A DNA stretch of 32,441 bases from an uncultured Opitutia bacterium. GTDB lineage: Bacteria > Verrucomicrobiota > Verrucomicrobiia > Opitutales > Opitutaceae. Below the pieces are notes generated by a model. It was given only the letters and a program-made list of their open reading frames with translations. It was not told the DNA's origin and did no database searches. The stretch is taken from contig CAIRCN010000036.1 of assembly GCA_903877135.1 (NCBI GenBank), positions 1 to 32,441 on the forward strand, given 5' to 3'. Shown here in pieces: positions 9,182 to 32,441 of this stretch (position 1 is its first letter; each line of letters begins with the position of its first letter). Both the position numbers and the translations under genes were made by a program.

Positions 9182-12100
9182 TCATCGCGAGGCATCGCGG
9201 AGTCCATCGCGTGCCCCCACGTCATTCGTCGATCCGGTGGTCGGGTTCCTGGCCGTCAGGGTTTGGCGCAGGGCGACGAGCAGTTTCTCCACCTCGAAGG
9301 GCTTGGCCAGCAATGGGACCGCATCGAGCCCTTCCAGCCCTTTGAATGTCCCCTGCTCGATCAGCCCGGTCATGCCGAGTATGGGCAGGCGCGCGTCCAG
9401 TTGCCGCAGCGCCCGGACCAGCTTCGGTCCGTCCATGCCGGGCATCATCATGTCGGTGAGGACGGCTTTGATCTCGGTGCGGTGCCGGGCAAAGAGCACC
9501 AGCGCCGCTTCACCTTCGGCCGCAGCCAGGACCCGATAACCATATTTCTCCAGCACGCGCTGAGTTGTGCCGCGCACCGTGGCTTCGTCGTCCACCACCA
9601 GGATCAATTCGCCGTGCCCGCGCGGCATCCTCACCTCACGCTCAGCCGGGTCGGCCGGCGTCGCCTCGGGCGAGGCCGGGAGGTAAAGCTCGAAGGTCGT
9701 ACCCTGTCCCACCCGGCTATCCACGCGCACCGAACCGCCGTGCCCACGCACGATGCCCAGCGCGGTGGGCAGCCCGAGCCCGGTGCCTTTGCCGACTTCC
9801 TTCGTGGTGAAAAACGGATCGAAGATGCGCTCCAAGTGTTCGGCTGCAATGCCGGTGCCAGTGTCGGTCACGCACAGGCGCACATGAGGCCCGGGCTTGG
9901 CGTCGAGCATCAGGGCGGCGGACGCGTCATCGAGGGTGACATTGTCGGCCGCGAGCGTCAGCGTGCCGCCGTCAGGTATGGCGTCGCGGGCATTGACGCA
10001 CAGGTTCATGAGCGCCTGATAAATCTGGGTCGTGTCACCCACAACCGGCCAAAGTTCCGGAGGCACGGTGACAGCCAGGTGGAGATTGCGAGGGAAGGTC
10101 TCGCGGATGAGCTTTTCCATCTCGCGCAGCAGTTGGCGCACTGGCACCAGGGCGCGCACGCCGGGCTGGCCGCGGGCAAAGGTGAGCAGTTGCCGGACGA
10201 TGTCGGCGCCGCGCTGGGCGCTGAACTGCACGGAATCGAGCAGTTGGCGGCCCTCGGCATCGCGGACCGCGTCGCGCAGGAGCGACGCGGACATCATGAT
10301 CGGCGTCAGAATGTTGTTCAGGTCGTGGGCGATGCCGCCCGCCAGCATGCCGATGCCCTCCATGCGCTGGGCCCGGAGGTATTGGGACTCCAACTGTTTC
10401 TTGTCGGTGATATCCGTGTTGATGGCCAGAACCTCCCTGGGGTGGCCCTGCTCGTCGCGGAGCAACGTCCAGCGGCAAAAGACGACGTGCTCCTTACCGT
10501 CCTTGCCGGTCTTGTTCACTTCGCCGGACCAATCGCCATGCGCCAGGAGCGCCGCCTGCGCCGTGGCGAAACCCGCCGGTTCGACCAGCCCCAGTTCGGT
10601 GAGCTTGCGGCCGATCGCCTCCGCCGGCAACCAGCCGTAGAGCCGCTCGGCGCCGAGGTTCCAGTAAGTCACCGTGTGGTCCAGCAGGCGGACGTAGATG
10701 GCGTCGGTGGCGGAATCGAGCAGTGTGGCCTGCCTGCGCAACCGCTCCTCCGCCTGCTTGCGCGCGGTGATGTCGCGCACGAAAACCAAGAGGCTGCCAC
10801 CATCCGGTGCATAGTATAGGGCGCTGACTTCCACGAGGAACGTGCTTCCATCCTTGCGGCGTTGCCAGCTCTCGAAGCGGTCCGCGCCTTGCGTCATGAC
10901 TTTTCGAATGTGGGCGGCAGTGTCGGTGGTCGTTTCAACGACCACCAGTTCGGGAACGCTCATGGCCAGCAGTTCCTGCTCGGTGTAGCCGCTCATCCGG
11001 CAATAGGTCCCGTTGACTTCGAGAAGACGCCCCTGCAAGTCCACCCGCCAGAATCCATCCATCGCCGTGTGCGCAATGGCGCGGTGCCGCTCCTCACTCG
11101 CGCGCAACTCGGTCTCTGCATGTTTGGCTGAAACGATGTCCCAGGCCAGATTGGCCAATTGGGAGATGCTCCCCATGTCCTCCGGCCCATATTCGCGCGG
11201 TTTGTTCCCGACACCCAACAGAGCCACGACCTGCTCGTTTCGCAGCACGGGAACGACCAACTCGCGGAGCACCGTCGCGTGGCCGGGCGGCAGGCCATGG
11301 CGATGGGGCAGGCTGGCGTAGTCATTGTACACCACTGGGCCGCGCTCGCGAAGGGCATCCACCCAGACCCCGGCCACGTCCGCCGAATAGTGCTGCCCCT
11401 TGCCCTCGGCGGTGCACATGTGCCGCAGGGTGTTGGTGGACCAAGTCTGCAAGGAGAGCGTTTTCTGGTCGGCCTCTACAAAGTGGAAGAAGCCAATCGT
11501 GCTGCCGGTCAGCAACTCGGCTTCGTCCAGCACCCGGGTGAGCAGCTCATCAAGGGAATTATTGAGCGCATATTCACTGAGCCGCACCCGGGCCTGTAAA
11601 ATGCCCTCCGCCTGCTTGCGCTCGGTGATGTCGCGGATAACGGCGGTAAAATTTTTCCCCTCTGCAACCTGCCATTCCGAGAGGGAGAGGAGGAGCGGAA
11701 ATTCACTGCCATCTTTGCGCCGCCCTTGCACTTCAACCGTCTGCCCGATGACGTGGGGTGCGCCGCCCGACTGCACCCGCGCCAGGCCAGCCCGGTGGCG
11801 GTCGTGGTATTGGGCGGGCTGCAGCAGCGTGATCGGCCGACCGCGGACTTCGACTTCCGTGTAGCCGAAGATGCGTTCAGCCGCGGGGTTCAAACTCACG
11901 ATGTTGCCCGCGCTGTCAGCGCTGATGATGGCATCGTTGATCGAGTGAACCAATGCCTCGTAATGCGCCGCGCTCTCGTGCACCGCCTTCTCGGCGGCCT
12001 TGCGCTCGGTGATGTCGCGCACGATGACGACCATGCCGGCAGGGGATCCGTCCGCCTCCCGGATGAGTTCGCTGTTTACCTCGATGTCGAAGGTGGTGCC

Positions 12101-12796
12101 ATCGCACCGCAGCCCACGGTATTCGCTCGGACCCGTGATGACACCTTGGTGTTTTCGGGCTACTTGCACCCTGGCGCGGTCTCGATCCTCGGGAATGAGG
12201 AAGTCGGTGAGCAGCCGCCCCACGAATTCCTCGTCTCCCGCCTGTCGAAACATAGTCCTCGCCACAGGAGACACCATGATGATTCGGCCGTCTCGATCAG
12301 TGATCGTGATGTCATCGGGAGAGGCGTTGAGAATCGAGCGATATCGTTCCTCGCTCCGACGCAGTGCGTCATTGGCCTTTTCCAGGGCACCATTGACGCG
12401 CCGCAAATCGAGTAAATCGGCGTGGCGCGCGATGGCGATTGCGATGGCCCGCTCCAGTTCCTGGGCTTGCGGAGGCTTGAGCAAAAACGCCCCCACGCCG
12501 GCCAAGGTTGCCCTGGCCACCAACTCGGCTTCGTCGTGGGCGGTGAGGATAACCACCGGGGTCGGGCAACTCACCTGGATGGCAGCTGCAGCCTCGATGC
12601 CATCCATTTTGGGCATCGTGATGTCCATCAGCACCACGTCGGGCTTCAGCTCAAGCGTCATGTCCACGGCCAGTTTCCCATTGGCGGCGATGCCGACGAC
12701 GATCAGGCCAATCGATGCCAATTCATCTCGAATAATGCCGGCGACCAAAACGTCGTCTTCGGCAATCAATACTCGGATTTCACGGTTGGTTTTCAT
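9182..12796 (-). CDS. Hybrid histidine kinase with receivers at both ends (REC-PAS-PAS-GAF-PAS-PAS-HK-REC)
   Basis: A 1204-residue soluble hybrid kinase. The N-terminal receiver (about 7-125) has AEDD and Asp58 in VLMDITMPKMDG. Next are two PAS/PAC units (about 145-265, 275-395), then a GAF-type domain (about 405-575) with the family-typical GFFHFVEADQ and NDYASLPHRHGLP. Two more PAS/PAC units follow (about 585-820). The HisKA has GGIAHDLNNILTP with His824; the HATPase shows MNLCVNARDA and GKGTGLGLPTALGIVRGHGG. The C-terminal receiver has LVVDDE and LTDMMMPGMDG. It starts 27 bases after the stop of the MASE1 kinase on the same strand, so the two are probably co-transcribed. The first receiver could accept phosphate from that neighbour. 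Each PAS/PAC unit ends in DITERK or DITARK-like sequence. No membrane segments are seen. Confidence 0.92.
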   Translation of the reverse strand: MKTNREIRVLIAEDDVLVAGIIRDELASIGLIVVGIAANGKLAVDMTLELKPDVVLMDITMPKMDGIEAAAAIQVSCPTPVVILTAHDEAELVARATLAGVGAFLLKPPQAQELERAIAIAIARHADLLDLRRVNGALEKANDALRRSEERYRSILNASPDDITITDRDGRIIMVSPVARTMFRQAGDEEFVGRLLTDFLIPEDRDRARVQVARKHQGVITGPSEYRGLRCDGTTFDIEVNSELIREADGSPAGMVVIVRDITERKAAEKAVHESAAHYEALVHSINDAIISADSAGNIVSLNPAAERIFGYTEVEVRGRPITLLQPAQYHDRHRAGLARVQSGGAPHVIGQTVEVQGRRKDGSEFPLLLSLSEWQVAEGKNFTAVIRDITERKQAEGILQARVRLSEYALNNSLDELLTRVLDEAELLTGSTIGFFHFVEADQKTLSLQTWSTNTLRHMCTAEGKGQHYSADVAGVWVDALRERGPVVYNDYASLPHRHGLPPGHATVLRELVVPVLRNEQVVALLGVGNKPREYGPEDMGSISQLANLAWDIVSAKHAETELRASEERHRAIAHTAMDGFWRVDLQGRLLEVNGTYCRMSGYTEQELLAMSVPELVVVETTTDTAAHIRKVMTQGADRFESWQRRKDGSTFLVEVSALYYAPDGGSLLVFVRDITARKQAEERLRRQATLLDSATDAIYVRLLDHTVTYWNLGAERLYGWLPAEAIGRKLTELGLVEPAGFATAQAALLAHGDWSGEVNKTGKDGKEHVVFCRWTLLRDEQGHPREVLAINTDITDKKQLESQYLRAQRMEGIGMLAGGIAHDLNNILTPIMMSASLLRDAVRDAEGRQLLDSVQFSAQRGADIVRQLLTFARGQPGVRALVPVRQLLREMEKLIRETFPRNLHLAVTVPPELWPVVGDTTQIYQALMNLCVNARDAIPDGGTLTLAADNVTLDDASAALMLDAKPGPHVRLCVTDTGTGIAAEHLERIFDPFFTTKEVGKGTGLGLPTALGIVRGHGGSVRVDSRVGQGTTFELYLPASPEATPADPAEREVRMPRGHGELILVVDDEATVRGTTQRVLEKYGYRVLAAAEGEAALVLFARHRTEIKAVLTDMMMPGMDGPKLVRALRQLDARLPILGMTGLIEQGTFKGLEGLDAVPLLAKPFEVEKLLVALRQTLTARNPTTGSTNDVGARDGLRDASR
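10747..10777 (-). repeat. PAC-end DNA repeat, copy 1 (one mismatch)
   Basis: This 31-base string encodes the end of a PAC motif on the minus strand and differs by one base from the identical copies at 11605-11635 and 18787-18817. It lies inside the hybrid kinase gene. Confidence 0.7.
11605..11635 (-). repeat. PAC-end DNA repeat, copy 2
   Basis: The plus-strand string beginning CCTCCGCCTGCTTGCGCTCG and ending GTGATGTCGCG is identical, over 31 bases, to 18787-18817 in a different kinase gene. On the coding strand it specifies the R-D-I-T-E-R-K-Q-A-E stretch that closes a PAS/PAC unit. Confidence 0.75.
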
Positions 12797-19944: not shown

Positions 19945-22900
19945 TCATTTGAAATCTCCGGGTTGCGGTGAGGAGTCGCCTAAAGACGTCCGCACCTTGG
20001 CCGCCAGATCACCAATCGAGAACGGTTTTTGGATGAAGTTTACTCCTGCCTCCAGCACGCCGTGATGGCCAATGACATCGGCCGTGTAGCCGGACATAAA
20101 CAGGCACTTGAGCTTCGGCCGGAGCGCCAATAGTCGGGCGTTCAGATCTCGGCCGTTCATTCCGGGCATCACTACGTCGGTGATTAACAAATGAATCTCT
20201 CCAACGGGCGTCTCGGCCAATCGGATCGCCTCGCCCGGCGTGCTCGCGGCCAGCACCTTATAGCCCAACCGTTCGAGAATCATCCGGGCAATGCCCCGGA
20301 CCGCCGGTTCGTCCTCCACCAGGAGCACCGTCTCCCCGGTACTCTTGGGCATTTCCGCTACGATTGCCGTCCCGGTCGCCGTGGCCTGCCCTGCGTGCCG
20401 TGGCAGGTAGACCGTGAAGGTCGTGCCGTGGCCAAGCTCACTGTAGACAGTGATGAACCCGTGGTTCTGTTTGACGATGCCATACACCGTGGGCAGCCCC
20501 AAACCCGTGCCCGATCCGCTGCCTTTGGTCGTGAAGAAAGGTTCGAAAATTTGGGCCAGGGTGGCCTGGTTCATTCCGCAGCCATTGTCGCTCACAGTTA
20601 GTCGCACATATTCACCCGACATATACCTCGGGTGATCGACGCAGTAAGCCGCGTCGAAGGCAGCATTCGCCGTTTCGATCGTGACTTTGCCCACCCCGCC
20701 GATGGCGTCGCGGGCGTTGACGCAAAGGTTGGCGAGAATCTGGTCAACTTGAGTCGGGTCCACCTTGACCAGTCCCAGGTCCCTCGCAGGCAACCACGCC
20801 AGGTCGATGTCCTCGCCGATGAGCCGCCGCAGCATCTTGAGCAGACTTTCCAAGGTGGCGTTTAAATCCAGCACCTTGGGCGCGATGGTCTGGCGGCGTG
20901 CAAATGCCAGCAATTGCCGGGTCAGATCGGCGGAGCGCTCCGCACATTTTCGGATTTCTCGCAGGCCCTCGTCCGTCGGGCTGCCCAACGGAACCCCCTC
21001 CAACGCCAGGTCCACATTGCCCAGAATGGCCTGGAGCATGTTGTTGAAATCGTGGGCCACGCCACCCGCGAGGCGGCCGACAGACTCCATCTTTTGAGCC
21101 TGCTGGAACTGGGCTTCGAGTTTGACCTTCTCTGCTTCGGCCTCCTTGCGTGCGGTGACGTCCTGGCTGGTGCCACGCAACCTCAGTGCACGGCCTTGGT
21201 TATCTCGTTCCAAGGAGGCCCGGCTCCAGAGCCAGCGCTCGGCTTGGTCGGCCACACGGATGACACGATACTCCTTGTCGAACGCCTGGTCCCGGCCAAT
21301 CACTTCGTTTGTAAAGTAGCCAGCCACCATGGTCCGGTCGTCCGGATGGACCACCGCCAGCCACCCCGCCATTGAGTGTTCGTAGGCGTGGTCGATCCCA
21401 AGCAACTGGTCCAGCACCTCCGAACTCCTCCATGTCCCGTTGATGAGATCAAACACAAAGCTGCCGAGGCGGGCAATGTGCTGCGATTCCTTGAGCGAAG
21501 CCTCGCTCTCGCGCAATTGCGCTTCCGCCCGTTTGCGTTCGGTGATGTCGGTAGACACGCCACACACGGCATAGAGCTTACCTCCGCTTGTTCGGAGAGG
21601 AAATTTGGATGAGAGATACGTGCGGACGTTACCATCGCACTCCACCTTTTCCTCCATTTCCCGCGCCTGTTCGGTAAGAATGACCAACCGGTCATTCCTG
21701 ATGAATCCCTCCGCGATATCCCGGGGGAATATTTCGTAGTCGGTTTTCCCTTGAATCGCGGCGACCTTGATATGAAACAACTCTTCAAAGACATGGTTCA
21801 CGTAGATGTACCGGCCGGCCATGTCCTTCATGTAAATGACCGCTCCGGCATTGTCCGTGATCGCGCGCAACCTCGCCTCGCTCTCCCGCAGCGCCAGCTC
21901 CGCTCGCCGGCGTTCGGAGATGTCGCGGCAGACTGAGAGGATGCGCGCTTCTCCCCCTTTCCCCTCAACGGTCGCGCTGACCTCGACCGGCGTAATCCGC
22001 CCGGTGTGATCCACATAATCAAGGACCAGGTTCCTGATCGAGCCCTCGGTTACGCACCTAGCCACCGCCTCTGCGTTTTTCGTCTTTTCATACTCCGCGG
22101 TCCATTCCACGACGCTTCTGCCGAGAATTTCGCGCAGTTCCCGATGGCCGCTCAGCCGCACATATTCGCTGTTCGCGTCAGCGACCCGGCCTTTGCCGTC
22201 TAGAATGAGATACCCCGTCCCGGTGCTCTCGATGAGCGCACGGTACTTGGCCTCGCTTTCCCGCAGCGCATCTTCCGTTCGCCTGCGCTCCGTGATGTCC
22301 TGGGTAATCTCCACCACTTGGATGACCTTACCAGTGGCATCACGGATCGGTGAGGTGGTCAGCGCGAGGATTCGGCCCGCCCCAGCCGGAGTGCCTATAC
22401 CCGAGCGCTCGGCCGTGACAACCTCGCCAGTCTGGAACGTGATCTGCGCCGGACATTTGGAACAGATGGCATTCCGGCGCTCAAATACCTCAAAACAGTT
22501 CCGTCCTCGGATCTTACCGAGGGGGCCAAACCAGCCTTCGAACAGACTATTGTACCACGTGATTGTATAGTCTGGATTGAGAATGGACATCCCGATGCCA
22601 GCGGATTGGGCGATGGCATTGAGCATATGCTTGAGCTCCAGCGCATCCTCCGCCTCTTTCTGTCTGGTTAGGTCGCTCAGCACGCCAAGGGCGCCATCAA
22701 AATTCCCATCTTTATCGTACAGCGGAGTGGTCGCAATGCGGGTCAGCACCTTTCTGCCGTCCTTGTGTATAAACAGAAACTGATGTGGTTCCTTCACCCC
22801 GGTCGTACGGCGTTTTTCAAGTTCCTTGGCCCGCGCCACCCACTCCGGATCGCCGAAATCATACCAACTTCGCCCCACCATTTCCTGACGCGTGTATCCG

Positions 22901-24135
22901 AGGATCTGCTCTACTGAATGGTTCACGTAAACCGTCATGAACTGCTTGTCGAGCAGCCAGAAACCATCGGAAGCCGATTCCACCAGCACGTGGAAGATTT
23001 CCTGTGCGCCCACCCTGACCTTCAGTTCCTCCAGCGCCGCCGCTGTCTGTTTACGCTCGGTGATGTCGATGCAAATGCCGGTCATGCGCACTGGCTGCCC
23101 TGACTGATCGTAGGTGGTGTTCCCCAAGGCGCTGATCCAACGTACGCGGCCGTCGGGATGGACAACGCGATACTCGTTGGTGAGTGGTAATTTCTCTCTG
23201 ACCGCACGCGCAATGCGATCAGCGGCATTCGCTCGATCCGCGGGGTGAATCACCTGCTTCCAGGTCTCGAAGGTCGCGCCGGCCCCACCCGGATCCAATC
23301 CAAAGAGACTGTAAAGCTCTCGCGACCACTCCAGATGTTGATCGATCATATCCCAGTCCCAAGTGCCTGCGCCAGCGGACCGGTGCGCCAGTTCCAGCCG
23401 CTGCTTGCTCAATTCCATCGTTTTCTCTGCTTGTTTCCGCGCGGTGATGTCCTGAACCGTGGTGCGAATCCCAGTGATTCTGCCATCTTTGCCCCGCAGG
23501 AGCCGATCCTGGATGAGCACCGATATCTTCGCGCCGCCTTTCCTGCAGAAAGTGCGTTCGATACTTTGCGCAGTCGAAACCATGCCCGCGAGTTTCTCCA
23601 ATACGGCTTCTTGAGAAACAGCTCTTTCCTCCACAAACTCCCACACGGGGCGGCCCAACATCTCCTCGGCGGAATAACCCAGCAGCGCGAGTTCCGTACG
23701 GTTGACGCGGACAATGCGTCCCTCGGCGTCAAGTTCATGGTAGCCGGTCGGAGCATCATCGAACATCGACCTGAAGCGCGTCTCGCTTTCCTGCAGGTTC
23801 TCCTCCGCCTGCTTGATCACGGTGATGTCACTCAGGGTGACGCGGCACACGGGAGCGCCGGCGGCATCCCGGTCGTCGCCGAGACCACGGGCCTCATCGC
23901 CGTCAGCGGCGAAGCCAAGAAGCTCGGCCTCAAGCGCAATACTCGCGTCGCCGAAGCACGCCAGCTCTGCCCAGGCATCGTCATCGTGGAGTCGCGCCCC
24001 GAAGTTTACATCGACTACCACCGCCGCCATCAACATCGGGACCCGGGTCCTGTTCGTCCCCGCGCTCCCCGAACGCCAGCGACGTCCTCGGCCGGATGTC
24101 GCCAGGAAGGGGCAGCGCCTTGCCGCCGACCCCAA
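19945..24135 (-). CDS. Seven-PAS hybrid histidine kinase, 5'-truncated by rearrangement
   Basis: The open frame encodes 1396 residues, but kinase homology starts only at about residue 89 (near 23,871), in the middle of a PAC motif (DAAGAPVCRVTLSDIT). The first 88 residues are antisense to a Y-family DNA polymerase fragment and are not kinase-like, so the original N-terminus and start are lost. Seven PAS/PAC units follow (from about 118, 245, 375, 505, 630, 755 and 880). The fourth has Cys558 and Cys561 in an ICSKCP motif. The HisKA is GGVAHDFNNMLQ (His1028); the ATPase has LANLCVNARDAIGG and GSGTGLGLPTVYGIVKQNHG. The receiver (about 1272-1390) has LVEDEP, Asp in LLITDVVMPGMNG and Lys in FIQKPFS. 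The catalytic half is intact; whether it is expressed, from ATG 24135 or an internal start, is unknown. Confidence 0.8.
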   Translation of the reverse strand: MGSAARRCPFLATSGRGRRWRSGSAGTNRTRVPMLMAAVVVDVNFGARLHDDDAWAELACFGDASIALEAELLGFAADGDEARGLGDDRDAAGAPVCRVTLSDITVIKQAEENLQESETRFRSMFDDAPTGYHELDAEGRIVRVNRTELALLGYSAEEMLGRPVWEFVEERAVSQEAVLEKLAGMVSTAQSIERTFCRKGGAKISVLIQDRLLRGKDGRITGIRTTVQDITARKQAEKTMELSKQRLELAHRSAGAGTWDWDMIDQHLEWSRELYSLFGLDPGGAGATFETWKQVIHPADRANAADRIARAVREKLPLTNEYRVVHPDGRVRWISALGNTTYDQSGQPVRMTGICIDITERKQTAAALEELKVRVGAQEIFHVLVESASDGFWLLDKQFMTVYVNHSVEQILGYTRQEMVGRSWYDFGDPEWVARAKELEKRRTTGVKEPHQFLFIHKDGRKVLTRIATTPLYDKDGNFDGALGVLSDLTRQKEAEDALELKHMLNAIAQSAGIGMSILNPDYTITWYNSLFEGWFGPLGKIRGRNCFEVFERRNAICSKCPAQITFQTGEVVTAERSGIGTPAGAGRILALTTSPIRDATGKVIQVVEITQDITERRRTEDALRESEAKYRALIESTGTGYLILDGKGRVADANSEYVRLSGHRELREILGRSVVEWTAEYEKTKNAEAVARCVTEGSIRNLVLDYVDHTGRITPVEVSATVEGKGGEARILSVCRDISERRRAELALRESEARLRAITDNAGAVIYMKDMAGRYIYVNHVFEELFHIKVAAIQGKTDYEIFPRDIAEGFIRNDRLVILTEQAREMEEKVECDGNVRTYLSSKFPLRTSGGKLYAVCGVSTDITERKRAEAQLRESEASLKESQHIARLGSFVFDLINGTWRSSEVLDQLLGIDHAYEHSMAGWLAVVHPDDRTMVAGYFTNEVIGRDQAFDKEYRVIRVADQAERWLWSRASLERDNQGRALRLRGTSQDVTARKEAEAEKVKLEAQFQQAQKMESVGRLAGGVAHDFNNMLQAILGNVDLALEGVPLGSPTDEGLREIRKCAERSADLTRQLLAFARRQTIAPKVLDLNATLESLLKMLRRLIGEDIDLAWLPARDLGLVKVDPTQVDQILANLCVNARDAIGGVGKVTIETANAAFDAAYCVDHPRYMSGEYVRLTVSDNGCGMNQATLAQIFEPFFTTKGSGSGTGLGLPTVYGIVKQNHGFITVYSELGHGTTFTVYLPRHAGQATATGTAIVAEMPKSTGETVLLVEDEPAVRGIARMILERLGYKVLAASTPGEAIRLAETPVGEIHLLITDVVMPGMNGRDLNARLLALRPKLKCLFMSGYTADVIGHHGVLEAGVNFIQKPFSIGDLAAKVRTSLGDSSPQPGDFK
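23863..24024 (+). pseudogene. Internal fragment of a Y-family DNA polymerase (DinB/UmuC type)
   Basis: Fifty-four codons on the plus strand read from GIPVVAETTGLIAVSGEAKK through RVAEARQLCPGIVIVESRPE to VYIDYHRR. This is the finger/palm segment of DinB/UmuC-like translesion polymerases, in which an SxEAKxxGxxxxTxxxEARxLCP pattern is followed by ExRPxxYxxYH. The preceding catalytic N-terminus (with its metal-binding Asp) and the following palm with the SxDE site are both missing. It lies antisense to the start of the truncated kinase frame and is unrelated in sequence to the ImuB gene at 29,876. It is a relic left by rearrangement, not a functional polymerase. Confidence 0.8.
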
Positions 24136-24238
24136 TTACCCGTCCCCGGCCGATATCGAGCGCATGACCAAGGAGGTCGTGGATGAAATATTGCGCGGGC
24201 TGCCGGACCCGGGTCTCGATGGGGAAGGTGCAAATTGA
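24025..24238 (+). pseudogene. Coding-like fragment of unknown function
   Basis: Directly after the polymerase fragment, in another frame, the plus strand is open and ends ARKGQRLAADPNYPSPADIE-RMTKEVVDEILRGLP-DPGLDGEGAN-stop at 24,238. The charged, helix-like C-terminal part reads like real protein, but no upstream start exists that is independent of the polymerase relic. I do not recognise the family. It may be the tail of a small protein whose beginning was lost in the same rearrangement, or chance. Confidence 0.3.
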
Positions 24239-24780
24239 GTTGAGCCACCGCCACGCCAGGACTCCGGGATCGATGGGTTTGGTGGTTGTGGATGACGCGA
24301 GCACCGGCCGCCCGCGCCATTCCATAGGTCTTTTCAGCCAGGTTCTGGCTATCCCAAGAGTTCGCCTGCCCGAGGATGTTGAGGGCGCCCATAGCGCCAG
24401 CGGCCCACAATGAAATTCTATCACCGAGCGGCCGCATGAGTTTTTTGACCATACGGGAGACTAGATGGTCCCAACTACTCCGCGAAAATCTCGTGTCTAC
24501 AAAACGCACGTCAGCGAAACGCCCGGTCCGCTCAATACCCGGATCAACGTATCGGCGTCCGACGGTTTTGTGCAAAGCGTTGAACGAGGTTTCTCGTCAG
24601 AATCGGTAGGTATGTGAACGCGCCGCTTTGGCGCAAGGACCCTACGCCGGCGGCGTTCCTCCTCCTTGCCTGCGCCTTCGGACGGACGATCACTGGGGCC
24701 GTGGGGCGTGGCAGACTCTGCAAATCGACCGAGGGCGCGGCAGACGTCGATGGGATCGAACAATACTGTTGCCACTCCTC
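24239..24780. other. Intergenic stretch without a recognised gene
   Basis: About 540 bases between the gene fragments and the AbiEi gene. A minus-strand frame here contains KKLMRPLGDRISLWAAG and AMGALNILGQANSWDSQNLA, which looks mildly coding-like but has no family I recognise and runs into antisense sequence of the fragment to its left. No RNA gene or repeat array is seen. Confidence 0.4.
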
Positions 24781-24800
24781 GGTAGTTATGAATATCTACC
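24781..24800. promoter_or_regulatory. Palindrome just upstream of the AbiEi gene, candidate operator
   Basis: GGTAGTTAT-GA-ATATCTACC is an inverted repeat of 9-base arms with one mismatch, ending one base before the ATG at 24,802. AbiEi antitoxins of type IV systems are known to repress their own operon by binding inverted repeats in the promoter, so this is a natural operator candidate. It includes an AT-rich TATGAAT string that could serve as a -10 element. Binding is inferred. Confidence 0.45.
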
Positions 24801-24801
24801 A

Positions 24802-25413
24802 ATGTCTCAAAACATGCTTTCCAAGGTCCAAATCATCGAGCGCCTTGCTGGGAAGCAGGGGAGCATCCGCCCTCGCGATCTCAAGCAGCGCGGGCTGCCG
24901 AGCGTTTATCTCGGCCGGCTGGTCAAGCGAGGCCGGCTCGTACGGCGTGCTCGTGGGGTGTATGTTCCCGCCGACCAAGAGATCAGTGGCACGCACGATT
25001 GGGACCTGGCGTGCCTGCAGCTGCCCAAGGGCGTGCTGTGCCTCCTGTCGGCGCTCGTGTACCATCAGATCGGCGCCCAGAACCCGTCCTCAGTCTGGAT
25101 GGCCATCGACGTCAAGGCTTGGCGCCCAAGAGTGAAGTATCCCCCGATGCGCATCGTGCGTTTCTCCGGGCCGGCGCTTACGCATGGCGTGATGGTGGTG
25201 CAAGCCGGCCACGCCACCCTGCGGGTTTACAATCCTGCCAAGACCGTCGCGGATTGCTTCAAATATCGCCACAAGATCGGATTGGAAGTCGCCGTAGAAG
25301 CACTCCGCGAAGGCTGGCGCGCAAAGAAGTTCAGCCTTGAAGAACTCGCTCGCGCGGCCCGTGTCTGCCGTGTTCGCCGAGTCATCCAGCCGTACCTCGA
25401 AATGCTCTCATGA
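24802..25413 (+). CDS. abiEi: Type IV toxin-antitoxin AbiEi-family antitoxin/transcriptional regulator
   Basis: A 203-residue protein of the AbiEi antitoxin family. The N-terminal winged-helix region (about 5-65) reads VQIIERLAGKQGSIRPRDLK and YLGRLVKRGRLVRRARGVYV. The C-terminal domain carries the characteristic VYNPAKTVADCFKYRHKIGL and EVAVEALREGW motifs, where PAKTxxDCFK(Y/H)RxKIGxDVA is typical. Members antagonise the AbiEii nucleotidyltransferase toxin and autorepress. I chose the ATG at 24,802, just after a palindromic candidate operator; the frame is open to 24,628, but that extension is not family-like. Its stop overlaps the start of the AbiEii partner in ATGA, the normal operon arrangement, but that partner is destroyed. 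It may now act as a free regulator, a protector against related toxins, or be a relic. Confidence 0.85.
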   Translation: MSQNMLSKVQIIERLAGKQGSIRPRDLKQRGLPSVYLGRLVKRGRLVRRARGVYVPADQEISGTHDWDLACLQLPKGVLCLLSALVYHQIGAQNPSSVWMAIDVKAWRPRVKYPPMRIVRFSGPALTHGVMVVQAGHATLRVYNPAKTVADCFKYRHKIGLEVAVEALREGWRAKKFSLEELARAARVCRVRRVIQPYLEMLS

Positions 25414-25592
25414 GCACGGCCAAACCCAAGAACCTGCCGGCCTCCGGGAAAGCCCTGGGGCTCAGCCTGGCGACCAGCTTGACCCATTGCTCACACCCAA
25501 ATCGACCTTCCGGCAGATCTCGCGGCACAGCGCAGCAAGACTGCCAACGGCGACCCACCGGATACTGCCATCTTTTCCGTGATAACGTTTGA
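25410..25592 (+). pseudogene. abiEii: Truncated AbiEii nucleotidyltransferase toxin gene
   Basis: The gene begins with the ATGA overlap expected after AbiEi and encodes MSTAKPKNLPAS followed by GKALGLSLA. This fits the usual AbiEii start (KPKNLxASVRxRLLNLA). After about 21 codons the similarity ends and the frame continues as low-quality sequence (CSHPNRPSGRSRGTAQQ) to a stop at 25,592. None of the nucleotidyltransferase core of the roughly 300-residue toxin is present. The toxin was removed by a deletion whose left breakpoint lies near 25,475, leaving the antitoxin alone. Confidence 0.65.
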
Positions 25593-25625: not shown

Positions 25626-25907
25626 ATGATTATCTCGTTCCGCTGCGACGCCACCGAGCAAATCTTCAAAGGAGAAAAGTCGCCGGACTTGCCAGCCGAC
25701 ATTCAGAAAGTTGCACTCCGCAAACTCCAACAACTCGACATCGCCCAGAAACTCGACGACCTGCGGGTTCCTCCCGGCAATCGGCTGGAACCGCTCAAGG
25801 GCGACCGCAAGGGGCAGTACTCCATTCGCATCAACGCCAAGTACCGCCTCTGCTTTACTTGGACCGACCGCGGAATCGAGGGCGTCGAAATCGTGGACTA
25901 CCATTAA
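25626..25907 (+). CDS. higB: HigB-family toxin (RelE superfamily mRNA interferase)
   Basis: A 93-residue toxin of the HigB/RelE fold, which cleaves translated mRNA on the ribosome. The family signature PPGNRLEPLKGDRKGQYSIR followed by INAKYRLCFTW covers the conserved beta-sheet, and the protein has full family length. The toxin gene precedes the antitoxin gene, which is the characteristic order of higBA loci, with three bases between them. No Shine-Dalgarno sequence is present; the ATG follows a palindromic control region. The pair is intact, unlike the neighbouring AbiE system, and would be active as an addiction module. Confidence 0.92.
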   Translation: MIISFRCDATEQIFKGEKSPDLPADIQKVALRKLQQLDIAQKLDDLRVPPGNRLEPLKGDRKGQYSIRINAKYRLCFTWTDRGIEGVEIVDYH

Positions 25908-25910
25908 ATC

Positions 25911-26216
25911 ATGACGAAGAAACTGCCACTCCCTACTCCGGGTGAAATGCTCCGTGAAGAATTCCTGACCCCACTGGGCCTCACCCCCTATCAGTTGGCA
26001 AAAGACCTCCACGTGCCCCAGACCAGGATCTCGGCCATTTTGGCTGGCGAGCGCACCATTACCGCCGACACCGGACTACGCCTGGATCGCTATTTCGGAC
26101 TTTCCGACGGGTGGTGGGTCCGCCTCCAACTGGACTGCGATCTGCGCAGAGCCCAACGGGAATTCGGCGCGCGCATCGCCCGGGAGGTCAAGCCGCGCGA
26201 ATTTGCCGCCGCTTGA
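25911..26216 (+). CDS. higA: HigA-family antitoxin (HTH XRE)
   Basis: A 101-residue antitoxin with an XRE-type helix-turn-helix. TPGEMLREEFLTPLGLTPYQ leads into LAKDLHVPQTRISAILAGER and TITADTGLRLDRYFGLSDGW, all typical of HigA. It neutralises HigB by binding it and represses the higBA promoter; the palindrome at 25,594-25,617 is the probable site. It starts three bases after the higB stop, so the genes share one transcript. The C-terminal ARIAREVKPREFAAA tail is a little charged but within the normal family range. Confidence 0.93.
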   Translation: MTKKLPLPTPGEMLREEFLTPLGLTPYQLAKDLHVPQTRISAILAGERTITADTGLRLDRYFGLSDGWWVRLQLDCDLRRAQREFGARIAREVKPREFAAA

Positions 26217-26771: not shown

Positions 26772-29700
26772 TCAGCGGAAATCATGGCTTGCCTGGGCCG
26801 GCAACGCCGCGTTGGGCATGGCCACAATCTCCTCCGCCATAATGTGAATCGTGCCCTGCTCGTTCTGCACGCGGCCCCTGATGATGAGCGCCGGCTCCAG
26901 GTTAATAACCAGACGGCTGTCTTCAAACAGGTCCGGCCGCACGATGGCGTTCGCGTGTCCGGTTTCATCCTCAAGGGTAATGAAGCAAAATCCCTTGGCC
27001 GTGCCGGGCCGCTGACGGGTGATGACAGCACCGCCGATCTTCACCCGTTCCCCGTGCCGCGCCTGCTTGAGCGACCCGGCCGTCCAAAGTCCCGGCAGGT
27101 TCTCCCGCAACAGCCGCATGGGATGCCGGCCGGTCGTAAGGCCGAGGGTCTCATAATCGGCCTGCAGCCGCTCCAGATGGGTCATCATTTCCAGCGGCGA
27201 CAACGCCGGTTCCGGCGCTTCCACCGCCACCAACCGGAACAGCTCGCCGCTGCTCTCCGAATCCTCCACCTGCCACAAGGCCGCCCGTCGGTGTTGGGCG
27301 AGCTCATTGAGCGCTCCGGCCTTGGCTAGTGCCCGCCGCTCCGCCGCGCTGAAATCCGTCCGGCGCAGGAAGTCCGCGGTTGACACGAACGGAAGATTTT
27401 TCCGGGTCTCTAGCATCGCCGAGACGTTCGCCGCCCGGACTCCGCGCACCGAGGAAAAGCCCAAGCGGATCGTGTCGTCGCTTTCGACGCGGCAGTCCCG
27501 CTCGGACACCTGCACGCAGACCGGCAGCGTCTTGATGCCGTGCCTCCGCGCATCTTGCACCAGACTCGCCGGCGAATAAAATCCCATGGGCTGGTTGTTC
27601 AGGAGGCTCGCGTAGAACGCGGCCGGCCGGTGGACCTTGAGCCACGCCGACGCGTAGGCAATCAAGGCGAAAGAAATCGCATGGCTCTCGGGAAAACCAT
27701 ACAACGCAAACGAAGCGAGCGACTGCTGAATGGAGGTGATGGCGGGCGGGCTGACACCGTTACGTGCCAGGGCAATGGCCAGCTTCTCCTTCATGCGGTT
27801 CAGGCGTTCCTGCGAGCGCGTGAACCCGATCGCCCGGCGCAGTTCGTCGGCCTCGGAGGCCGTGAACCCGCCCAACTCCATGGCCAATCGTAAGATCTGC
27901 TCCTGAAAAAGCACTACTCCCAGTGTCCGCTCCAGAATCGGCTTCGCCCGCTCGTCGGGATAGGTGACCGGTTCGCGGCCTGCTCTCCGGGCCAGGTAGG
28001 GATTCACGGCGTTCCCCTGGATCGGCCCCGGTCGGATGATCGCGACTTCGATGGCGAGGTCATAAAACGTCTCCGGTTTCATGCGCGGCAGGGTCGACAT
28101 CTGCGCGCGGCTCTCGATCTGAAAGAGCCCGACCGTGTCCGCCTCCTGGATCAGCTTGAACGTGGCCGGGTCGTCCTTGGGGATGCGCGCCAGGTCCACC
28201 GGTTGGCCCCGGACCGAACAGATTTCAAGGGTGTCCTGCAGCACGGCCATCATGCCCAGCCCGAGCAGGTCCACTTTCACGATGCCCATGTCCTCGCAGT
28301 CTGATTTATCCCACTGCAACACGCTGCGGCCCGGCATCCGGGCGTTCTCGAGCGGGACGTAGTCGTTCAATGGACCCGCGCACAGCACCATGCCGCCCGA
28401 GTGCTGTCCCAGATGACGGGGAAGGCCATAAACCCGCTGACAAGTGTCGAGCAAGGCTGGCAGGCGCGGATGGTCCGCCGTCACCCCAGCCATTTTCAGT
28501 TGTTCCGCCAGCTGGATCGTCTGCGGATAGTCCCCGCCGTGAAAGAGTGACGAAAAGCGGTCCAACACATCGTCCGGAATACCGAGCACCTTCCCGACCT
28601 CGCGCATCGTGCTTTTGCCTCTGAAGGTGATCACGTTCGCCGTCATGGCCGCACCGCGCCGACCGTAGCGGCGATAGACCTCCTGAATCACTTCCTCGCG
28701 CCGCTCCATGCTTGGCAAATCCAAATCAATGTCGGGCCAGTCTGTGCGACCCTCACTCAGGAACCGCTCAAAGAGGAGCTTGCTGCTGATCGGGTCCACG
28801 GCGGTGATCCCGAGTGAGTAGCACACTGCGCTGTTGGCCGCACTGCCTCGCCCCTGCACGAGAATCCCGCGTTCGCGGGCAAAAGCGCACAGATCCCATA
28901 CAATCAGAAAATATCCGGAAAATCCCAGTTTGCCGATGAGCGTGAGTTCGCGTTCGAGCTGGCGGCGCACCTCCCCGGCCACGGACCCATACCGCTGCTG
29001 CGCGCCAAAGTAGGTCATCTTCCGCAGAAACGACTCCTGGGTTTCTCCCACCGGCACGCCGTAGTCGGGAAAACGGTAGCCGAGATTCGCCAACGTGAAC
29101 TCAAGCCGCTCCGCCAGTCGTTCGGTATTGCTTACCGCCTCGGGCAAGTCCGTAAAGAGCGCGGCCATCTGCGGCGCGGCCTTCAGGTGCCGTTCGCGGT
29201 TGAGGGCCAGTTTCCTGCCCGCGGCGTCAAGGGTGACATGCTCCCGGAGACAGGCGAACACATCGGCCACGTTGCGGGCCTCCGGGGTGGGGTAGGTCAC
29301 GCCGTTGGTGGCGAGAAGCGGCAGCCCATGGGCCCGCGCCCAATCGATTAGAAATTCGTTCTCATCCTCCTCGCCGGGCACGTAGTGGCGTTGCAACTCC
29401 ACGAAGAGCCGGTCGGGCCCGAAGACTTTCCGGAGTTTTTCTCCCGCTTCGGCGGCTGCGTGCGCCCCTTGCGCACGCCATACTCGCCGCACAGGTCCTT
29501 CACCATCGCCGGTCAGAGCAATCAATCCCTCATTGCTCTCGGCCAGCTCCCGCCAGGTTACGCGGCCCTCGCCCTTTGGTGTGCGGAGATTGGCTGTGGT
29601 GAGCAATCCACCGAGCCGGCGGTAGCCGGCCTGCGTGGCAACGAGCAGAGGCACAACCGCGCCGTCCTCCATCGTGAGTTCGCAGCCGACCAGCGCACGA

Positions 29701-29876
29701 AAGCCGCCCTCCTTCGCCGCCATGTGCAGGCGCACTGCGCCATAAACTCCATCGCGGTCACAGAGGGCCAAAGCCGGCAGTTGCAGGCGGCCAGCCTCTA
29801 GGGCAAGAGACTCCGGCAAAGAGCCCCCGCGCAAAAATGAGAAGGCGCTGCGCGCATGAAGTTCGACATAGGGCAT
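26772..29876 (-). CDS. dnaE2: Error-prone DNA polymerase DnaE2 (ImuC)
   Basis: A 1034-residue C-family polymerase, the usual DnaE2 length, which performs mutagenic translesion synthesis with ImuA and ImuB after DNA damage. The PHP domain opens with YVELHARSAFSFLRGGSLPE. The catalytic aspartates are in WPDIDLDLPS (Asp382, 384, 386), and KVDLLGLGMM carries a further conserved Asp. GQHSGGMVLC, YGFPESHAISFALIAYASAW and the C-terminal SHDFR ending are hallmarks of DnaE2 as opposed to DnaE1. The C-terminus carries an OB-fold region (GAVITRQRPGTAKGFCFITL). Its ATG overlaps the imuB stop (ATGA), so it is translated as the last gene of the SOS operon. It would be repressed by LexA encoded at the head of the cassette. 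Confidence 0.96.
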   Translation of the reverse strand: MPYVELHARSAFSFLRGGSLPESLALEAGRLQLPALALCDRDGVYGAVRLHMAAKEGGFRALVGCELTMEDGAVVPLLVATQAGYRRLGGLLTTANLRTPKGEGRVTWRELAESNEGLIALTGDGEGPVRRVWRAQGAHAAAEAGEKLRKVFGPDRLFVELQRHYVPGEEDENEFLIDWARAHGLPLLATNGVTYPTPEARNVADVFACLREHVTLDAAGRKLALNRERHLKAAPQMAALFTDLPEAVSNTERLAERLEFTLANLGYRFPDYGVPVGETQESFLRKMTYFGAQQRYGSVAGEVRRQLERELTLIGKLGFSGYFLIVWDLCAFARERGILVQGRGSAANSAVCYSLGITAVDPISSKLLFERFLSEGRTDWPDIDLDLPSMERREEVIQEVYRRYGRRGAAMTANVITFRGKSTMREVGKVLGIPDDVLDRFSSLFHGGDYPQTIQLAEQLKMAGVTADHPRLPALLDTCQRVYGLPRHLGQHSGGMVLCAGPLNDYVPLENARMPGRSVLQWDKSDCEDMGIVKVDLLGLGMMAVLQDTLEICSVRGQPVDLARIPKDDPATFKLIQEADTVGLFQIESRAQMSTLPRMKPETFYDLAIEVAIIRPGPIQGNAVNPYLARRAGREPVTYPDERAKPILERTLGVVLFQEQILRLAMELGGFTASEADELRRAIGFTRSQERLNRMKEKLAIALARNGVSPPAITSIQQSLASFALYGFPESHAISFALIAYASAWLKVHRPAAFYASLLNNQPMGFYSPASLVQDARRHGIKTLPVCVQVSERDCRVESDDTIRLGFSSVRGVRAANVSAMLETRKNLPFVSTADFLRRTDFSAAERRALAKAGALNELAQHRRAALWQVEDSESSGELFRLVAVEAPEPALSPLEMMTHLERLQADYETLGLTTGRHPMRLLRENLPGLWTAGSLKQARHGERVKIGGAVITRQRPGTAKGFCFITLEDETGHANAIVRPDLFEDSRLVINLEPALIIRGRVQNEQGTIHIMAEEIVAMPNAALPAQASHDFR

Positions 29877-31324
29877 CAGTCAAAAACCCCCTCGATGCAC
29901 CAGCCCTTGTCGCTGCGGGCCAGTTGATAGACCACGGCGTCCTCCAGTTCGACCTGCCACGTTTCGCTCATCCACGCCTCCGGCCGCCACCACTCCCCGT
30001 CGGCCCGCCACGGTCCATTGACCTGGCGGATTGACCCGATGAGTCCGCCAGCGAGCGCCGTGGGCTGCTCGTCCACCAGCGTGACCTGCACCGGCCACGC
30101 GGGCCGAAACCGCCGCAGCACCAGTCCACGCGCAGCGTGCACAGAGGACTCCTTGGATGCCGGGACAGTGTCAGCCGGACGAACCAAGGTGAACGCATCT
30201 GGACGGTGGGTGTCCACCCTCACGGGTGTGCCGACGCGATCGTCGCCAATCAGGGCGCCGACCCGGGCAAGATTTTCCCAAAAAGCCGCCGGGTCGCGCA
30301 GTCCGGTTTCGAACAAGCCGGCTTGTTTTTGCGCCGGCCGGACCGGTGTTGCCATCAGCTGCGCCCCGATCAGGTGAGAGGCCAATCGCACGGTCTCTAA
30401 ATGGGAGATGAGCACGCGCATCCAAGAGGCCACATCGCTTCCCGGCTCCGGCAGCCGAAACTCCCGCCGGTATGCGCTTTCGTCCTCGAGCTTAAGGGTC
30501 AGGGTCAGTGACTCGGCCACCAACCCCGCCCCGCGCAATTCAAAGGCGAGCCGCTCGGCAAAACGCTGCAGCTTGAAAGTCAGTGGCTCCAGCGTGTCGA
30601 TGGAGGTGGCATACTCCCAGGCCGCGGCGAAGGTCCTGACTGGTTCCACTAGCCGCAGCACGCGAGTCGCCTCCCCCGCGGCCCGTTCCCACAGAGCCAC
30701 GCCCTCCGCCCCGAGCCGCTGCCCCACGTCGGCCTTGGTCAGCGCGGTCAGAGCACCGAGAGTTTTCAGGCCCCAGCCCTCCAAAATCACCCGCTGCCCT
30801 GGGGTCGGCTCGGCGACGGCCAGAGGCAGGGACTGCAGGAATTTCCAGTGATCGTGCACGAGCAAAACCGACTCCGCGCTGCGCGCAGCATAACGGGCGA
30901 GGAGCGGCGTGGCGCCCGCACCAGCCCGAGCGGGTATTCCCATTTGGTTGAGTTCGATCACTCGCAGTCTCATCGCCGCTTCCGTCTGGTCCGCATCGGC
31001 CCCCTGCAGATCAATGGTGCAAATGCCGGCCGCAGTGGCCTCGACTCGGGGCGACAGCGTGAAGGCGGCGGCGAGCAGTATTCGCTGAGCTTCGACTTCT
31101 GCCGCCGGATCCCGCGTGCGCAGGATAATCCCGGGGCAGCGGGCCATCGCCATGGTGGCAGTCAGGCCCGGGGTTACTCCCGTTGCCTCCGGCGACACTT
31201 CGGTCAGCGCAGCTCTCCGACCTTCCCCGGCGACCAAGGCCACCGGCTTCCCCACCAGGGCCGGTTCGCTCCGTCGCAAGGCGTGCAGCGCAAAGTCCGG
31301 CACGATGAGCACGGCGTAGTTCAT
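29876..31324 (-). CDS. imuB: ImuB, catalytically inactive Y-family polymerase homologue
   Basis: A 482-residue Y-family homologue that serves as the clamp-binding hub of the ImuA-ImuB-DnaE2 mutasome. The N-terminus reads MNYAVLIVPDFALHALRRSE, in place of the Y-family DMDxFFxxVE catalytic motif. Around residues 95-108 (ATAAGICTIDLQG) the acidic SxDE pair is missing, so polymerase activity is not expected. The fold is otherwise clear: GVTPGLTATMAMARCPG and a helix-hairpin-helix-like part (GWGLKTLGALTALTKADVGQ). A beta-clamp-binding motif QAGLF lies at 334-338. The start is ATG 31,324, overlapping the imuA stop in ATGA and preceded by a good Shine-Dalgarno AGGAGG (31,340-31,335). The frame is open further upstream, but that part lies over imuA. 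Confidence 0.94.
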   Translation of the reverse strand: MNYAVLIVPDFALHALRRSEPALVGKPVALVAGEGRRAALTEVSPEATGVTPGLTATMAMARCPGIILRTRDPAAEVEAQRILLAAAFTLSPRVEATAAGICTIDLQGADADQTEAAMRLRVIELNQMGIPARAGAGATPLLARYAARSAESVLLVHDHWKFLQSLPLAVAEPTPGQRVILEGWGLKTLGALTALTKADVGQRLGAEGVALWERAAGEATRVLRLVEPVRTFAAAWEYATSIDTLEPLTFKLQRFAERLAFELRGAGLVAESLTLTLKLEDESAYRREFRLPEPGSDVASWMRVLISHLETVRLASHLIGAQLMATPVRPAQKQAGLFETGLRDPAAFWENLARVGALIGDDRVGTPVRVDTHRPDAFTLVRPADTVPASKESSVHAARGLVLRRFRPAWPVQVTLVDEQPTALAGGLIGSIRQVNGPWRADGEWWRPEAWMSETWQVELEDAVVYQLARSDKGWCIEGVFD

Positions 31325-31968
31325 CCGGCTAATTCCTCCTGCGGCAGGTGCCCCCGTGTCACCTGCACATCCAATGCCGCGAGCAACTGGTCCTGCGTGG
31401 TCCGGCGGACCGCGAGTCCGAGAGGTGTGCCGAGGTGCAGGCGCCATGGCACCGCTGGCACCAATGCTTTGGTCGTCTGAACAAGCACGGCCGCAGGTCG
31501 GCTCTCCGCAGCCCGATGCAAGCGGTGCCACTGGCTCGACGGCGTCGCATGCAACACCCGGGGTTCGATCCCGCGGAGGTCGAGCACTACGAGCGAGTAA
31601 TTTCCATCCCGCACCAGCAGGTCCGCCGTCGCGAAGGCCTCGGTCAAGGTTTTCGGGCGGGCCCACACCAAATGCGTCAGCGCATCACATGGCACGCTCT
31701 CCGGCACGAACCCGTCCGCGGCGTCCACGAGGGCGACCCGCTGCTGTTCCGCCCGCGTACTCTGCAGCAATTTCGCCAACACCAACTGACCGCCACTACT
31801 GGCGCACGCCGAAACCAATTCCGTCAGGCGGCCCCCGGCGAGCCCGCCGCCCAAGGCCCGGTCAATCGACCCAACCCCGGTGGCCACAACCCCGGCCGGC
31901 TTCCGCACGGACGTGGGGAAGCGGGCGTCCACGAGGGACCGCAAGGCGGTGATGGTCGGGTGGGACAC
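31321..31968 (-). CDS. imuA: ImuA, RecA-like SOS mutasome protein
   Basis: A 215-residue RecA-fold protein of the ImuA/SulA-like group, needed with ImuB and DnaE2 for damage-induced mutagenesis. TGVGSIDRALGGGLAGGRLT followed by ELVSACASSGGQLVLAKLL corresponds to the RecA region ahead of and around the P-loop, but the Lys-Thr of a working Walker A motif is missing. LVVLDLRGI stands where Walker B would be. The start is a GTG at 31,968: an upstream ATG at 31,978 is in another frame, and an in-frame TGA lies three codons before the GTG. Fourteen bases separate it from the lexA stop. Its own stop overlaps imuB. Confidence 0.9.
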   Translation of the reverse strand: MSHPTITALRSLVDARFPTSVRKPAGVVATGVGSIDRALGGGLAGGRLTELVSACASSGGQLVLAKLLQSTRAEQQRVALVDAADGFVPESVPCDALTHLVWARPKTLTEAFATADLLVRDGNYSLVVLDLRGIEPRVLHATPSSQWHRLHRAAESRPAAVLVQTTKALVPAVPWRLHLGTPLGLAVRRTTQDQLLAALDVQVTRGHLPQEELAG

Positions 31969-31982
31969 GGGCTTTCATGCGC

Positions 31983-32441
31983 TCAGGCAATCTTCCGCCG
32001 GATCACCCCGACCACCACGCCCTGGCATTCCAATCGCGAGGGCAGGAGGTCGGGGTAGCGTGGATTTTCGGCTCGTAACAGTGTTCGACCGCGTTCGCGG
32101 ACGAACCGCTTCAAGGTCGTGGTGGTTTCATCCACCAGAGCGGCGATGATGTCACCCGGCAGCGGGTCCCGCCGGACCAGCGCCACGAGATCGCCACCTA
32201 AAATATTCGCGCCGGTCATCGAGTCGCCCTTCACCCGCAGGAACCAGAAATATCCCGGCCGCGGTTTCCGCACGCCGAAGATCGCGGGGTCGACGTTCAC
32301 CTTCTCGTCGGGCTCCTGCTCCTCCATGGCCGGCAGACCGGCGGGGATCGTGCCATACACGGGGAAAGTAAAGTGATCCTGAACCTCCGCCACACTCAGC
32401 CCCCATTTTCCATCGGCCAGTTTTTGCACCCGGCCCTGGCG
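31983..32441 (-). CDS. lexA: LexA-type SOS repressor, C-terminal part (cut by window edge)
   Basis: The visible 152 residues include the self-cleavage and catalytic domain of a LexA repressor; the N-terminal winged helix lies beyond the right edge. The frame is open to the last base, so the GTG giving MQKLADG is internal and not the start. Cleavage would occur at the Ala-Gly bond in GTIPAGLPAMEE (codons at about 32,342-32,337). The catalytic Ser is in KGDSMTG (codon 32,222-32,220) and the Lys in TTLKRFV (codon 32,111-32,109). It heads the imuA-imuB-dnaE2 cassette on the same strand, as in many LexA/ImuAB operons, and would repress it until RecA-stimulated self-cleavage. The promoter and operator lie outside the window. 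Confidence 0.92.
   Translation of the reverse strand, partial: RQGRVQKLADGKWGLSVAEVQDHFTFPVYGTIPAGLPAMEEQEPDEKVNVDPAIFGVRKPRPGYFWFLRVKGDSMTGANILGGDLVALVRRDPLPGDIIAALVDETTTTLKRFVRERGRTLLRAENPRYPDLLPSRLECQGVVVGVIRRKIA

Follow-up and report, generated by a model that had tools for sequence, protein, structure and literature searches.

Bacterial gene remnants at rearrangement breakpoints are truncated pseudogenes, internal or terminal pieces of genes that lie out of context and are joined at very short stretches of similarity. Hybrid histidine kinases with PAS repeats combine these repeats with HisKA, HATPase_c and receiver domains, and the DinB-type polymerases of Opitutaceae carry the IMS domain (PF00817), followed by C-terminal domains. 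In the register in which two genes are antisense to each other codon on codon, stop codons arise only opposite TTA, CTA and TCA codons.

These elements meet in the window analysed here, which is the entire contig C36 (32,441 bases) from a 4.23 Mb draft assembly with 87 contigs (Table 1). A sensor-kinase gene that has apparently lost its 5′ part borders on a row of decayed gene fragments, and its extra N-terminus is probably spurious, the whole being a case of ordinary gene decay; the probability of this reading is put at roughly 0.8. The breakpoint interval is a scrap yard in which several gene remnants stand in a row, the polymerase piece being one of them. On the kinase side, between positions 275 and 24135, large PAS kinases and response regulators are crowded together on both strands. 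Neither RNA families nor tRNAs were found in the window.

Table 1. Features at and around the breakpoint interval, with positions in the window.
Feature	Position	Strand	Basis
Hybrid sensor histidine kinase: PAC tail, seven PAS domains, HisKA, HATPase_c, receiver; 5′ part apparently absent	19945–23871	−	Profile matches
Junction zone in which at most about 15 bases fit kinase (PAC tail) and dinB alike	23856–23874		Alignments; fit of the PAC tail
88 codons prolonging the kinase frame through foreign DNA	23872–24135	−	Open reading frame; no relative found
DinB-type (Y-family) polymerase gene, reduced to about 54 internal codons without either end	23866–24027 (onset uncertain, about 23856–23869)	+	Pfam IMS; amino acid identity
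Small FlgM-like gene (about 100 aa), preserved as a 3′ remnant that includes the stop codon and lacks the 5′ part	24047–24238	+	Homologues; weak FlgM matches
AbiEi-type antitoxin gene, apparently complete	24802–25413	+	Pfam AbiEi_4, 42.7 bits
Presumed stub of an AbiEii toxin gene	25410–25592	+	Start overlap; likeness by eye
HigB-like toxin gene, complete by profile coverage	25626–25907	+	HigB-like_toxin, 72.9 bits, positions 2–91 of 91
HigA-like antitoxin gene, complete by profile coverage	25911–26216	+	TIGR02607, 92.4 bits, positions 5–80 of 81
DnaE2-like gene	26772–29876	−	Sequence comparison
ImuB-like gene	29876–31666	−	Sequence comparison
LexA-like S24 gene, cut by the contig end	31983–32441	−	Sequence comparison

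The open reading frame of the kinase occupies 19945–24135 on the minus strand and encodes 1396 amino acids from a TTG start. Profile searches found the HisKA, HATPase_c and receiver domains as well as seven stretches of the PAS S-box model TIGR00229, in agreement with the first-pass annotation, which had described a seven-PAS kinase. Ahead of the first complete PAS domain stands a PAC tail, CRVTLSDITVIKQAEE, whose own PAS core is missing, and this tail is the furthest point to which kinase similarity can be traced. The residues RDAAGAP before the tail motif fit the PAC consensus R-D-A-x-G-x-P, by eye, after a shift of one residue, and the similarity is therefore taken to reach about position 23871. 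Compared without gaps, the positions ahead of the DIT motif give no PAC-tail score against 56 PAC-like tails, which were collected among the fetched loci by the pattern D-I-T..K..E and thus agree at these residues by construction. With kinase similarity extending to this point, the stretch that fits both kinase and dinB comes to the small size given in Table 1.

The N-terminal side of the kinase was compared with relatives in two ways. Among 252 Opitutaceae genomes, the own genome included and two candidates scored in each, 74 matched the kinase at an E value of 1e-90 or better. The strongest matches listed after the kinase itself covered mainly its C-terminal half. Among the others listed, the longest spanned residues 204–1296 of 1309 at 29% identity, and no full-length orthologue was present among the matches listed. 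The 312 N-terminal residues were also scanned against genome_contigs with six exact 8-residue patterns, a procedure that reaches close relatives only and whose scope possibly leaves out the own genome; 123 pattern matches gave no confirmed relative. Both results are weak negatives of limited reach, and in neither was any relative confirmed to carry the 88 additional residues that the first-pass annotation had declared spurious. N-termini differ, by eye, among four relatives of the first PAS domain (PAS1). As no full-length orthologue was found, it is the orphan PAC tail, rather than a direct comparison, that suggests a formerly longer N-terminus. A kinase split by an inserted island, with its N-terminus beyond, was rejected, given that the next large minus-strand gene (26772–29876) is dnaE2-like and encodes no PAS protein.

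The DNA that meets the PAC tail belongs to a polymerase gene. Plus-strand sequence at 23848–24036 matches Pfam IMS (PF00817) with an E value of 1.8e-8 and 34.8 bits, above the curated cut-off of 23.2, and the match covers profile positions 25–78 of 148, so that both ends of the domain are absent. The first-pass annotation had placed the end of kinase homology in a PAC motif near 23,871 and the onset of an internal DinB/UmuC-type segment lacking both ends at 23,863; both positions proved right to within a few bases. The piece was compared with 31 loci of Opitutaceae type, drawn from 40 dinB loci found, the nine others (L157–L165, mostly Akkermansiaceae) having 52–57% identity. Amino acid identity was 70–91% over all 31 and 89–91% to the five closest, two of which are interrupted by a contig end that falls within the gene or close to it. 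Nucleotide alignments started within 23855–23878 in 30/31 loci and ended within 24023–24033 in all 31, and the 3′ edge at 24027 was equally sharp codon by codon in three loci. In the relatives, the dinB frame measures 437–484 codons from stop to stop in 21/31 loci; it is longer in six and short in four, all four of the latter being cut by a contig end. With an incomplete IMS domain and homology ending near 24027, the piece does not represent a functional Y-family gene.

Several sources of this piece were considered. A recent copy of the intact dinB on contig C32 of the same genome was rejected, as identity to it is 78%, against 89–91% for the closest genes in other genomes. Relatives of the kinase, AbiEi, HigBA or DnaE2 occur in none of the fetched flanks (up to 3 kb) of the 31 dinB loci. 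A relic of the adjoining SOS cassette is unsupported on two grounds: dnaE2 is found in 0/31 of these flanks, and no relative of the piece occurs in the best 11 dnaE2 loci after the own one. An inverted repeat at 24027–24050 and 24205–24228 (83%) resembled the ends of a MITE or other repeat; it centres on a short palindrome, and of the eight matches listed elsewhere in the same genome (11 of 81 candidates scored) none passes 24026, so this candidate was dropped.

The age of the piece was approached through codon differences. Against the relative L129, 53 codons show 11 synonymous and 5 non-synonymous differences, and against nine relatives the ranges are 11–24 and 3–8. Among these nine relatives, in 20 of the 36 comparisons, the values run from 1 + 1 up to 16 + 11 or 14 + 12 (synonymous + non-synonymous). 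Since decay is undetectable in the dinB piece, the event may be recent, or the piece may be too short to tell; so little decay counts against the reading as gene debris.

The first-pass annotation had stated that the kinase frame happens to stay open through the foreign DNA, thereby creating an 88-residue spurious N-terminus. The frame is indeed open, and its openness across the dinB piece is expected rather than lucky, because it is codon-on-codon antisense to a GC-rich gene, where stops are rare. In 13 stop-to-stop dinB-holding frames picked from the 31 loci, the same antisense register was open in 5286 of 6284 overlapping 54-codon windows (84%). The extent of the polymerase part also needs correction. 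About 52 of the 88 extra codons lie over dinB, and the other 36 lie over different DNA, mostly the 5′ part of the FlgM-like remnant. Codon scores amount to 0.263 bits per codon for the antisense part over dinB, 0.299 for the kinase body and −0.231 for the outer 36 codons. With the antisense codons so close to the kinase body, codon use is no proof that the dinB-overlying part is spurious. Overall, the 88-codon extension probably did not evolve as part of the kinase and presumably lacks a function.

The codon scores over dinB and over the outer codons are also the reason why a gene finder might prefer an ATG at 24036 or 24030, yielding 1363 or 1361 residues, to the TTG at 24135, from which the first-pass annotation had expected automated annotation to accept a full-length protein of 1396 residues. 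The ATG at 24036 has an AGGA 11 bases upstream, a long though conceivable spacing for a ribosome-binding site. No well-placed ribosome-binding site was seen by eye before the eight listed ATG, GTG or TTG codons of the extension.

Beyond the dinB piece, in a different plus-strand frame, lies the 3′ remnant of a small gene with its stop codon at 24236–24238. Homologues are widespread, being detected in 140 of the 252 family genomes (own included) at a loose E value of 0.1, at which the weaker matches are possibly due to chance. Nine of them were read; they have 95–150 residues between stops and share a C-terminal motif around LAADPxYPS. Pfam FlgM matched two of four homologues with 15.4 and 12.8 bits (E 0.022 and 0.15), below the cut-off of 25, and did not match the other two or the window piece. 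Neighbours resembling the flagellar genes fliD or fliS, by eye, occur in two of four stretches around such genes. With matches at this level, the remnant is designated FlgM-like. A comparison of the piece with plasmids gave a single match with an E value of 0.8. A minus-strand frame at 24198–24596 has a protein-like reading; it belongs to no family in Pfam, PHROGs or NCBIfam and has no plasmid match. In the 252 genomes it was found in the own genome and eight others, the latter being weak matches of which six contain internal stops.

Further along the interval, toxin–antitoxin genes are found in various states of preservation. The AbiEi of the window has 51% amino acid identity to an annotated plasmid AbiEi, and a search for distant plasmid similarity with 23000–25200 matched two plasmids only, both within the abiEi part. 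The stub that follows begins with an ATG overlapping the abiEi stop codon by 4 bases, the same overlap as in three intact annotated abiEi–abiEii operons. Its likeness to AbiEii comprises about 20 residues by eye, the remainder of the gene being absent, and tblastn with three AbiEii proteins gave no significant match in the window, the stub included. A complete AbiEi/AbiEii system is therefore lacking, since AbiEi is present and the toxin has no significant match; the region 24802–25592 has the look of an orphan antitoxin followed by a presumed toxin stub. Elsewhere in this genome, AbiEii profile matches occur on contig C22 only, at 11560–12361 (L124, L125), in two pieces in differing frames, possibly another broken AbiEii gene. 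The HigBA pair at 25626–26216 is apparently complete and stands inside the decayed interval.

The interval is followed by 26772–32441, which we take to be a lexA–imuB–dnaE2 cassette of putative SOS mutasome type. In the best 11 dnaE2 loci after the own one, imuB was found in 10 and lexA in 8, in the same order. As for the three loci without lexA, two start at a contig start just before imuB, and the third (L087) has neither lexA nor imuB in the 2.7 kb before dnaE2. In one of the 11 loci (L086), a kinase core (9683–11488) follows some 3 kb after dnaE2 and is oriented as here; it has 45% identity to the window kinase over 387 residues, and a metallo-hydrolase-like frame, by eye, separates it from dnaE2. 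Conservation of a kinase downstream of dnaE2 was rejected; the occurrence is taken as chance because many kinases match at such a level.

In the favoured reading of ordinary gene decay, a rearrangement, by deletion or through illegitimate joining of ends that share a short similarity, would have removed the start of the kinase gene and set the PAC tail directly against the opposite-strand piece of an Opitutaceae-type dinB gene. On its other side, this piece would have become attached to the end of a FlgM-like gene, and the kinase frame would run into foreign DNA only because GC-rich codon-on-codon antisense seldom holds stops. The homologues fix the identities of the dinB piece and of the FlgM-like tail together with their borders; the joining mechanism is a proposed one. 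An assembly chimera, in which the assembler attached reads of a co-occurring strain, from a conserved segment of dinB, to the kinase contig, would produce similar junctions, and the fragmentation of the genome into 87 contigs is compatible with it. The dinB region is evidently troublesome for assemblers, since in two MAGs the gene is split over two contigs (L127/L130 and L135/L138, with overlaps of 392 and 443 bases at 92–93% identity) and in a third MAG (Verrucomicrobia, L128:850–1116) about 33 codons within this segment are duplicated in tandem and in frame. The split contigs suggest strain mixtures, and the duplication is either real or an assembly artefact. However, at about 15 bases at most, the dual-fit stretch between kinase and dinB would make a short overlap for an assembly, and the FlgM-like remnant and the missing abiEii indicate that the interval is decayed anyway, so that a chimera is considered unlikely.

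Another explanation concerns the fate of the frame rather than the origin of the junction. If the kinase were translated from the ATG at 24036 or 24030, it would be a recently formed fusion protein that took its start from antisense dinB debris, a natural protein N-terminus born by antisense overprinting. The two in-frame ATGs at the far border of the dinB piece, one of them with its upstream AGGA, the open frame with gene-like composition over the dinB part, and the catalytic part of the kinase, which is still an intact open frame, are consistent with this. The spacing and placement of candidate ribosome-binding sites speak against it, and the searches yielded no relative on which selection could be judged; it is considered less likely still than a chimera. 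Under gene decay, the kinase core may or may not be expressed.

For genome annotation, the locus carries a caution. In GC-rich genomes, the strand opposite a coding fragment, read codon on codon, is usually open and resembles a gene; therefore, truncated genes can gain false N-terminal extensions, which neither the length of the reading frame nor codon use would flag. In biological terms, the locus places a decayed interval beside a cassette of SOS mutasome type.

Compared with the systems outlined above, the locus shares with truncated pseudogenes at breakpoints the out-of-context pieces joined at very short similarity. Unlike in these, one piece is codon-on-codon antisense to the flanking gene, whose reading frame thus looks longer. 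The kinase has the domain set of PAS-repeat hybrid histidine kinases, but it is without a recognisable native N-terminus, its similarity starting within a PAC tail. The dinB piece resembles Opitutaceae DinB-type polymerases closely over its roughly 54 codons, whereas it is without a start, the rest of the IMS domain and the C-terminal domains, and is a fragment rather than a gene.
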